Shown: positions 2,659-59,093 of the stretch, in pieces
Layout of the letters: each line of letters opens with the position of its first letter
Numbering within the stretch: the stretch's first letter is position 1
Virus record (IMG/VR): IMGVR_UViG_3300030108_002876
Span: 1-64,000 of that record
Reading direction: 5' to 3' (one strand)
Origin: a virus
DNA: 64,000 bases
Made by a program: the position numbers and the translations under genes
The notes under the pieces: generated by a model
What the model saw: the letters and a program-made list of their open reading frames with translations, nothing else
Database searches by the model: none
Told to the model about the DNA's origin: nothing

Positions 2659-3464
2659 CATATTGCATATACCATATACCAGGTAAAAAAATCGGTGTAA
2701 CAAATAACCTGGAAGAACGAGTTACACGACAACAAGGTTATACAGAAGATGAATATGAAATACTAGATATGTCAGACGACATTTGCTACATATCTCACAG
2801 AGAGATAGAGCTGCAAAAAGAATATGGCTATAAAGTAGATCGTAAACTGTATAAAGATTTAAACCCTATAAAACAAGAATTAAATTCTATGAATATAAAC
2901 ATAACAGAACAAACAACTACGTTTCCATGCCCAGTAAATAAGCTTAAAGGCAGACTTATGGACGAGATAGGTATGTGCTGGAAAACAGATCACGGTAGAT
3001 GCTGTATCGACGCTGACTCTATTAAATGGATTATGGAAAACGTAAAGACATCTATGTATAACAACGATAGATGCTACGTATATAATAAGGCGTTTGCTAG
3101 GTACTTTGATAACAACGATTGCTGTAAGACAAATACAGGCGCGTTAAACATGAGTGGTCGTAGAGCGCCAGATCGTTTTGATCTAATCAGAACATGGGCA
3201 AATGAACGAGGCTTGTATGATAAAGGCGATACTAAAACTCAATACTTAAAGCTTATGGAAGAAGCTGGCGAGCTTGGTAGAGCTATACTAAAGAACGACG
3301 AGCCTGAGTTTATTGACGCTATCGGTGATATGGTTGTAGTACTAACTAATCTAGCTAGACTAGGTGGCGTATCAATTGAAACTTGTATTGATTCAGCGTA
3401 TGACGTTATTAGTAAGCGTACAGGTAAAATGGTTAACGGTACATTTGTAAAAGATACACTATGA
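2655..3464 (+). CDS. GIY-YIG-like domain fused to MazG-like NTP pyrophosphohydrolase
   Basis: The start overlaps the TS-family stop (ATGA). Residues 1-75 look like a GIY-YIG nuclease fold: CIYHIPGKKIGVTNNLEERV has the shape of the GIY...YIG...N-x-x-x-R core. A Cys-rich middle (CPVNKLKG, CWKTDHGRCC, NNDCCKT) has no assignment. Residues about 175-260 hold an all-alpha MazG-type domain with metal-binding acids in KLMEEAGELGRAI and EFIDAIGDMVVVL (ExxE...ExxD). MazG enzymes hydrolyse (d)NTP to (d)NMP and pyrophosphate. The nuclease half may be inactive because I cannot place its catalytic Glu with certainty. Confidence 0.75.
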   Translation: MTYCIYHIPGKKIGVTNNLEERVTRQQGYTEDEYEILDMSDDICYISHREIELQKEYGYKVDRKLYKDLNPIKQELNSMNINITEQTTTFPCPVNKLKGRLMDEIGMCWKTDHGRCCIDADSIKWIMENVKTSMYNNDRCYVYNKAFARYFDNNDCCKTNTGALNMSGRRAPDRFDLIRTWANERGLYDKGDTKTQYLKLMEEAGELGRAILKNDEPEFIDAIGDMVVVLTNLARLGGVSIETCIDSAYDVISKRTGKMVNGTFVKDTL

Positions 3465-55510: not shown

Positions 55511-55549
55511 TTACAAACTAAATACGACTTCACTTGGATAATATATATG
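55511..55549 (+). promoter_or_regulatory. Bipartite element, copy 1
   Basis: ACAAACTAAATACGA (55513-55527), spacer CTTCACTT, GGATAAT (55536-55542), then ATATATG which is followed by TAA; the actual gene start is at 55574. See findings for the seven-copy family. Confidence 0.85.
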
Positions 55550-55911: not shown

Positions 55912-55949
55912 TTACAAACTAACAACGACACTCGTTGGATAATAATAAT
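55912..55949 (+). promoter_or_regulatory. Bipartite element, copy 2
   Basis: ACAAACTAACAACGA (55914-55928), spacer CACTCGTT, GGATAAT (55937-55943). The next ATG is 33 bases further at 55982. Sits in a 142-base gap (55840-55981) that holds no other ORF. Confidence 0.85.
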
Positions 55950-56227: not shown

Positions 56228-56443
56228 TGATTAGTGCCAGCAAACTCCGCAAGTTGTCAGGCTTGTACCGCTTCCGCAGAGTATAAACAAATAATAGTCC
56301 AGTTAGTTGTATGTTTACTGGTAAATCAAATATGAACATACACACATAGTAGTCCTTGGCGGAATTGGCGGCGATTTTACCGTAGCATTGCAATTACGAG
56401 TTCGATTCTCGTGCTACTACTAACAATTAAATAAATAGAAAAC
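56228..56443 (+). other. Noncoding stretch with paired segments ending in a tRNA-like RNA
   Basis: 216 bases without ORF. Before the tRNA-like part (56347-56420) it contains nested complementary pieces: ACTC near 56243 with GAGT near 56279, and CAAG with CTTG inside. This suggests a structured transcript that ends in the tRNA-like element. Confidence 0.45.
56347..56420 (+). ncRNA. tRNA-like element 1
   Basis: Acceptor arm TAGTAGT (56347-56353) pairs with GCTACTA (56413-56419) over 7 bp (one G-U). T-arm ACGAG-TTCGATT-CTCGT (56396-56412) is perfect. D-loop-like GGAATTGG is present and the length (74) equals a normal tRNA. But no convincing 5-bp/7-base anticodon arm could be drawn, and C sits at the discriminator. 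Either a degenerate tRNA or a tRNA mimic. Confidence 0.5.
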
Positions 56444-58435: not shown

Positions 58436-58792
58436 ATGGATAAAGAAAATTTACAAACAAAGTTAGAAGCGCTAGAAGCTAACGTAAAAGTTAAGCAAAA
58501 TGAACTAGGCATTGCTATGTCAGAAGCTCAAATGGCGCGAGAAGAACTAGCTAATGCAGACAAACCTGTGCTATCAGCAGATAAAGCGTCAGATTTAGTA
58601 GATCTGTTACAAGGTATGTTTCACGATATACTAAATGACGCTGACACTAGCGACCTAAGTCCAGAGTTCAGTATAGACTATGGTAACGAGGTAAGACTCG
58701 ACTGCATTGACATGAGTGCGATCGAAGTACACTCAGGTGATATCGAAGCTGTACTAGAGCAGGTATTCAATATAGTGTCTGACAATAGCTAG
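58436..58792 (+). CDS. Small coiled-coil early protein
   Basis: 118 residues: KENLQTKLEALEANVKVKQNE and SEAQMAREELANADK form a coiled coil; the C-terminal half is acidic (DADTSDLSPEFSIDYGNEV). Lies 7 bases after the zinc-ribbon gene. Function unknown. Confidence 0.65.
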   Translation: MDKENLQTKLEALEANVKVKQNELGIAMSEAQMAREELANADKPVLSADKASDLVDLLQGMFHDILNDADTSDLSPEFSIDYGNEVRLDCIDMSAIEVHSGDIEAVLEQVFNIVSDNS

Positions 58793-59056
58793 TTAAGCAC
58801 GACGGTGCAAGGCGTACAAGCACATGTAAACACAAAGAGCTGTTTACCTAACGTGTAAAATTTACGATAGTGTACGTAACGGGCGAAAGCCACGCATTGG
58901 CCGCAGGTGACCTAGACGATAGGTGTCAAAGCTTCGGCGCCGGGTCAATGCTTTACATAAGAGTAACGGTTGTTATGCTTGCCTATCACAGGTAGCTTGG
59001 TGCACCAAGTGACGAGAAACAGCAAGTTAACGCAGGTTCGATTCCTGCACTCTTAC
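58793..59056 (+). ncRNA. Structured noncoding RNA region ending in tRNA-like element 2
   Basis: 264 bases without ORF. It contains GGC-GAAA-GCC (GNRA-capped, 58882-58891), GCATTG paired with CAATGC (58894-58899 with 58946-58951), and ACCTA-GACGA-TAGGT (58910-58924). GTAAAC/GTTTAC (near 58828/58841) also pair. The 3' end is a tRNA-like domain (58958-59055). No known RNA family could be named. It probably is transcribed and folds. Confidence 0.6.
58958..59055 (+). ncRNA. tRNA-like element 2
   Basis: Perfect 7-bp acceptor TAAGAGT (58958-58964)/ACTCTTA (59049-59055) directly joined to a perfect T-arm GCAGG-TTCGATT-CCTGC (59032-59048). In place of a normal anticodon arm is a longer stem GTTA-TG-CTTGC/GCAAG-T-TAAC with an inner CTTGG-TGCA-CCAAG hairpin. 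A T-arm and acceptor with a long replaced arm is the layout of the tRNA-like part of tmRNA, but no tag ORF was found. Confidence 0.55.
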
Positions 59057-59093
59057 AAACTAAATACGAATACTAATGGATAATATAAACATG
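59053..59093 (+). promoter_or_regulatory. Bipartite element, copy 6
   Basis: ACAAACTAAATACGA (59055-59069), spacer ATACTAAT, GGATAAT (59078-59084), ATG at 59091. Its first base is the last base of the tRNA-like acceptor, so the RNA's 3' end abuts the element. Confidence 0.9.

Follow-up and report, generated by a model that had tools for sequence, protein, structure and literature searches.

A probable two-domain noncoding RNA with an anticodon-less tRNA-like end in a crAss-like phage

The RNA locus and its phage

The window analyzed here, a stretch of 64,000 bases, comprises bases 1–64000 of a 65,509-base virus record. Marker proteins and relatives identify its phage as crAss-like (Crassvirales). 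The phage encodes portal, terminase, structural, and GroEL families as well as a Crassvirus muzzle domain just at the Pfam cut-off, and its terminase has relatives in Flavobacterium phage elemo and in Cellulophaga phages. The RNA under study (58793–59056) lies between a gene ending at 58792 and an ORF starting at 59076. As the initial annotation had stated, no gene-like ORF covers this stretch, and the longest plus-strand ORF inside it spans 41 aa. The annotated contact of the RNA 3′ end with a repeated element was also recovered, in the form of a promoter-like copy (Table 1). This element, ACAAACTAAATACGA...GGATAAT, has four exact copies in the window (at 55513, 58180, 59055, and 60253) and none in 100 shuffles; variants occur at 55914, 56534, and 56975. 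The copies precede genes of the early region, and the element looks like a putative phage promoter with a very short leader.

Relatives were gathered by a search with the ligase gene, which yielded 70 loci (designated by L numbers). In L066, L003, and L004/L005/L020, homologs of the window RNA sit at the equivalent position, and most other relatives carry T-arm sites within the same region. For the RNA over its full length, only three distinct close homologs were found. In Flavobacterium phage immuto, the downstream gene was matched, but only 62 bases occupy the expected place of the RNA, and this candidate was rejected. BLAST of the RNA against cultured phages found nothing beyond short matches of the T-arm to tRNA-type sequences, and the matches from pattern scans with 15–18-mers were mostly due to chance.

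Table 1. Coordinates of the RNA elements and neighboring features in the window.
Feature	Position	Strand	Basis or remark
Domain 1, conserved scaffold with variable stem extensions	58797–58957	+	homologs and covariation
P1 hairpin GCAC-GACG-GTGC	58797–58808	+	two compensatory pairs
P2, CGTAC (58813–58817) with GTACG (58872–58876)	58813–58876	+	three pairs changed on both sides
P3 GNRA-capped hairpin GGC-GAAA-GCC	58882–58891	+	MFE fold
P4, GCATTG (58894–58899) with CAATGC (58946–58951)	58894–58951	+	covariation
P5 hairpin ACCT/AGGT inside P4	58910–58924	+	covariation
Linker TTTACAT	58952–58958	+	GCTTTNNAT shared with relatives
Domain 2, tRNA-like: acceptor, D-loop GG, perfect T-arm	58958–59055	+	homologs L066, L003, L004
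Acceptor TAAGAGT with ACTCTTA, 7 bp	58958–58964 / 59049–59055	+	sequence
D-loop-like AACGGTT	58965–58971	+	part of domain 2
Middle arm, 60-nt hairpin replacing the anticodon arm (GTTATGCTTGC...GCAAGTTAAC)	58972–59031	+	replaceable
T-arm GCAGG-TTCGATT-CCTGC, perfect	59032–59048	+	sequence
Promoter-like element copy ACAAACTAAATACGA...GGATAAT	59055–59084	+	overlaps RNA 3′ end
Second tRNA-like unit TAGTAGT...ACGAG-TTCGATT-CTCGT-GCTACTA, then CTA	56347–56419	+	T-arm and acceptor scan

The 5′ domain is kept by compensatory changes

The stems, the GNRA-capped hairpin, the 7-bp acceptor, and the T-arm of the initial annotation are all present in the sequence, and the middle arm is a stem rather than an anticodon arm. 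The layout as one RNA stood as far as its structure is concerned, but not as a single unit: domain 1 precedes different tRNA-like units in different phages, and the stretch therefore probably comprises two RNA domains. The folding energy of the whole stretch was unremarkable (z −1.59; 14 of 200 shuffles as good), and that of domain 2 gave a z of −2.44, with 2 of 200 shuffles as good. We consider the convincing evidence for structure to be comparative, namely the covariation of domain 1 and that of the alanine-type tRNA-like chassis in relatives.

Homologs of domain 1 occur in L066, L003, L004/L005/L020, L007, and L021. Covariation in relatives, which had been proposed as a check on the stems, came out in favor of the domain 1 helices. 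Among five distinct sequences, each from a different phage, 11 of 19 pairs were changed on both sides and 95.8% of cells were paired, on a 65-column core trimmed by hand (variable parts cut, some P5 loops shortened), a procedure that can favor the result. None of 500 shuffles scored as high, and slid partners gave at most two pairs changed on both sides. L021 was represented by the innermost four pairs of its differing P5 hairpin; leaving it out gave 94.7% paired cells, and 8 of the 19 pairs then showed changes in both partners. The P1 counterpart in L007 and L021 is ACGC-GACG-GCGT, with two compensatory pairs. The distal part of P2 differs among phages and is almost missing in L066, and longer stems stand in place of P3 in L003, L004, and L007.

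Hairpins with the GACG loop of P1 rank first among all 256 tetraloops in the RNA regions, with 29 in 50 kb, compared with 43 when all loci (1.17 Mb) are counted. They recur with varied stems across the RNA regions of L003–L072, often right before a T-arm, and the hairpin is a possible candidate for a protein-binding motif. A 17-mer of the window P1, GCACGACGGTGCAAGGC, also sits within another tRNA-like unit on two prophage-like contigs (L119:8690–8790 and L120:7420–7520), both of which have a sub-threshold twister-P1 ribozyme match about 250 bases downstream.

Domain 2 is tRNA-like but, by the tests made, neither a tRNA nor a tmRNA

The strict combination of a T-arm with a 7-bp acceptor was found at two sites in the window (56347 and 58958) and once in total among 300 shuffles of a first-order Markov model; a criterion that differed slightly gave no match in 60 shuffles. 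The trinucleotide CAA directly follows the acceptor at 58958. Two readings of this acceptor are possible: 7 bp with C73, or 6 bp (AAGAGT/ACTCTT) where A73 comes before CAA. The latter reading matches the spacing in relatives better. The middle arm is nearly the same in L066, is another arm in L003, and is missing in L004, L005, and L020, which carry the armless form TAAGAGT-AACGGTTAGT-(T-arm)-GCTCTTA. Over 21 nt, the T-arm and linker of the window unit (TAACGCAGGTTCGATTCCTGC) match alanine-type units of L060, L062, and L064 exactly. The second unit of the window was likewise not called by ARAGORN, and L003 and L004 have an armless counterpart, about 45 nt long, in its place.

ARAGORN reported neither a tRNA nor a tmRNA in 58793–59056, and Rfam gave nothing for the RNA at the gathering threshold or at E ≤ 10. 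The RNA is not a tRNA (RF00005) by ARAGORN and cmscan, and its middle arm is a long stem that some relatives lack. By the tests made it is not a tmRNA either. Besides having no Rfam match, it lacks G3:U70 (the alanine identity pair) in either reading of the acceptor as well as the tmRNA D-loop and a conserved tag frame; neither its acceptor nor its D-loop is tmRNA-like, and there is no room for pseudoknots. A model built on alanine-type units (R1) matches the window unit at the T-arm only. The frame GCT TGC CTA ... AAG TGA in the middle arm, present in both the window and L066, would resemble the short tag of a true but unrecognized tmRNA. This explanation is extremely improbable, as the frame is missing in L003 with its other arm and in the armless L004, and the Rfam search argues against it as well.

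tRNA-like units as a class in relatives

Selection by nothing but the T-arm gave 110 distinct sites. In 109 of them C[T/A]A comes next, either at the position expected after a discriminator base or one base earlier, which marks these sites as tRNA-like 3′ ends as a class. C[T/A]A thus stands instead of CCA at all but one of these T-arm sites in the window and in L003–L072, true tRNAs included, and is perhaps a candidate signal for 3′ processing or CCA repair. In the related phage MW202828, a 593-base gap between annotated genes contained no T-arm unit; at L124:523–629 of this phage, mostly outside annotated genes, a T-arm has a 7-bp acceptor partner that lies 83 nt upstream. Relatives also hold true tRNAs and full tmRNA; the full tmRNA of the related Cellulophaga phage Calle_1 (L121:2671–3032) has the unusual tag AQIEANMEAVNAILNLEVAVGV. 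The window RNA escaped both ARAGORN and the Rfam gathering thresholds, as did many units related to it.

About 30 alanine-type mini-tmRNAs occur in other relatives, and a large class has GGGNGTG/CACNTCC plus A. With the tmRNA model, cmscan recovered L046:531–611, L036:3608–3688, and L048:46–126 at 64–69 bits (threshold 47); in these alignments, model positions 1–29 and the 3′ end match, and 11 nt stand in for about 300 model positions. The unit behind the domain 1 homolog of L007 (L007:2886–2969) also exceeded the threshold, at 48.8 bits. The tmRNA-like plan without a tag put forward in the initial annotation is thus borne out in kind by these units of relatives, but not for the window RNA with its lack of an Rfam match. 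All 18 distinct alanine-type cores, the 5′ sides of which were picked by the D-loop motif only with no requirement for pairing, have G3:U70, and 99.5% of their cells are paired. Pair 4–69 is C-G, G-C, or A-U, three T-stem pairs are changed on both sides, and A73 is strict. The conservation of G3:U70 favors either a decoy role or charging for the alanine types.

A mini-tmRNA pattern that replaces the mRNA-like domain with 20–50 nt matched 22 further viral contigs from other phages (L126–L147). Six of the eight matched contigs that were scanned passed as tmRNA at 53–73 bits (L130, L133, L134, L135, L144, and L147). These RNAs are about 80 nt long and devoid of an mRNA-like domain, and their P2 is often GNRA-capped. 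The contig L135 also carries a GOLLD RNA (2748–3145) about 1.5 kb from its mini-tmRNA (1188–1270). A search of 84,980 bacterial and archaeal genomes with this pattern gave no convincing match; the single hit, in a Thermomonas MAG, apparently arose by chance, its paired "acceptor" and "T-arm" being unlike those of the phage units.

Exchange of arms on a conserved chassis

The chassis is conserved and the arms are exchanged freely among relatives. When alanine-type units that share an identical chassis are paired, the arms prove unrelated in 43 of 55 comparisons, and a single arm is common to L038 and L045, whose chassis differ. The L049 phage contains a second, identical copy of 31 nt of its arm about 200 nt farther upstream, and a piece of the L042 arm was found at other positions in L054, L055, L036, and L029. 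Arm length in the group ranges from none to about 140 nt, on acceptors of the alanine type and others; armless units are about 45 nt long, as in L010 (GGGCATA-ATGGTTAAT-(T-arm)-CATGTCC-A-CTA).

These exchanges bear on two further explanations. The units could be decoys against host defenses that cut or sense tRNAs: an RNA without an anticodon arm would be immune to anticodon nucleases and might still bind tRNA-recognizing defense proteins, and arms traded between chassis, unrelated in most identical-chassis pairs, would reflect an arms race. We regard this as unlikely, given that its target is only hypothetical and the arms may equally be neutral caps. Still lower stands the idea that decaying remnants of tRNA/tmRNA clusters, without present function, were invaded by hairpin cassettes. 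The true tRNAs and full tmRNA of relatives would suit such an origin, as would the resemblance of the arms to inserted cassettes, but compensatory changes keep the acceptor and T-stem of the alanine-type cores paired, covariation keeps domain 1 paired, and the 3′ motif follows nearly every T-arm site, all of which makes decay improbable. A broader proposal, possible but rather doubtful, is that the units form a family of anticodon-less tRNA-like RNAs of about 45–170 nt, with a conserved chassis of several acceptor types, exchangeable hairpin arms, and structured leader RNAs. Such a family would be modular rather than a tmRNA relic and would control host tRNA/tmRNA factors and phage RNA ends.

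The junction between the two domains

In the window as in L003, L004, L007, and L021, the 5′ end of the tRNA-like unit comes after the sequence GCTTTNNAT. The slot behind domain 1 is occupied by a true tRNA-Arg(TCT) in L021, by a mini-tmRNA in L007, and by the AAGAGT unit in the window family. As GCTTTNNAT precedes every unit type behind domain 1, the comparison suggests an RNase P site between 58958 and 58959, with A59055 as the predicted discriminator base.

The interchangeable units favor a processing role, the main rival to the decoy explanation below. The tRNA-like domain would then be a signal like the t-elements, at which cuts by RNase P and RNase Z define the 3′ end of domain 1 and of the upstream transcript, with no further job. 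The equal spacing of the three unit types, as if any RNase P substrate serves, fits this role, as do the constant join to domain 1 and the dispensable arms, and t-elements are known to be cleaved and CCA-tailed without charging (PMC11658184). The strict G3:U70 and A73 of the alanine-type units would be left unexplained, however, and the units are few per genome. We hold this role to be a serious possibility, at clearly less than an even chance.

A possible decoy for tRNA and tmRNA factors

Such RNAs are numerous in relatives, where some are versions of tmRNA without a tag, and the window RNA therefore probably occupies or borrows the tRNA-handling machinery of the host. The explanation we tentatively prefer, at a little short of an even chance, is that the RNA acts as a decoy for tRNA/tmRNA factors and is cut out by tRNA-processing enzymes. 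The phage would produce a noncoding RNA of two domains, a structured 5′ domain and then a tRNA-like domain. The latter keeps the acceptor-side features read by tRNA enzymes, namely the acceptor stem, the D-loop GG, and the T-arm, with a replaceable hairpin where the anticodon arm would be. Host RNase P and the 3′ tRNA nuclease would free the tRNA-like piece, to which CCA may be added. The freed piece would occupy tRNA/tmRNA factors, most likely SmpB and EF-Tu, without decoding or tagging, and trans-translation would be dampened during infection.

Several lines of sequence comparison point in favor of the decoy explanation: the mini-tmRNAs of relatives that exceed the Rfam tmRNA threshold without an mRNA-like domain, G3:U70 in every alanine-type core with covarying neighbors, the L007 mini-tmRNA behind a homolog of the window domain 1, the 21-nt identity of T-arm and linker to alanine-type units, and the presence of mini-tmRNAs in the 22 viral contigs with none convincing in bacterial or archaeal genomes. 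The inhibition of tmRNA by a DS6A-like TLD (PMC4131195) favors it as well. Against it stand the features of the window unit itself (no Rfam match, no G3:U70, no tmRNA D-loop, and a match to the R1 model at the T-arm only), and the tight join to domain 1 suits a processing role equally. For the decoy idea of the initial annotation, phage DS6A offers a published precedent (PMC4131195, PMC11915505), but both the alanine identity pair and the tmRNA D-loop are missing from the window RNA.

Comparison with known systems

Compared with the tmRNA RF00023, for example that of Calle_1, the window RNA shares the acceptor, the D-loop, the T-arm, and a long stem replacing the anticodon arm, whereas it lacks the mRNA-like domain, the pseudoknots, the conserved tag frame, and an Rfam match. 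Tag-less mitochondrial and plastid tmRNAs resemble it as tmRNAs cut down to the tRNA-like part; they are organellar, and PMC11915505 describes neither exchangeable arms nor a 5′ partner domain for them. The t-elements of plant mitochondria are similar in being tRNA-like structures beside other transcripts that are cut by RNase P and RNase Z, and the position and spacing of the window unit behind domain 1 fit this comparison; they differ in being organellar homologs of ordinary tRNA genes with typical tRNA-like folds and no tmRNA link (PMC11658184).

PMC4131195 and PMC11915505 describe a TLD-only tmRNA in the mycobacteriophage DS6A, and according to the former a DS6A-like TLD is a strong inhibitor of tmRNA, both in a form that accepts alanine and in one that does not. 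By these descriptions, the DS6A RNA and the window unit are alike in being phage-encoded, mostly a tRNA-like domain, and free of a tag frame. In contrast to the DS6A RNA, the window unit lacks the alanine pair and has no tmRNA D-loop; its arms are exchangeable, and a structured 5′ domain is joined to it. Going by the same descriptions, the alanine-type units of relatives are much closer to the DS6A kind. In the open-access literature searched, the TLD-only phage tmRNA is represented by this one phage, whereas here such RNAs are common in a crAss-like group and occur in 22 other viral contigs. Being both common and varied, the plan is open to test, either as phage RNA decoys against ribosome rescue or as tRNA mimics that serve as RNA-processing signals.
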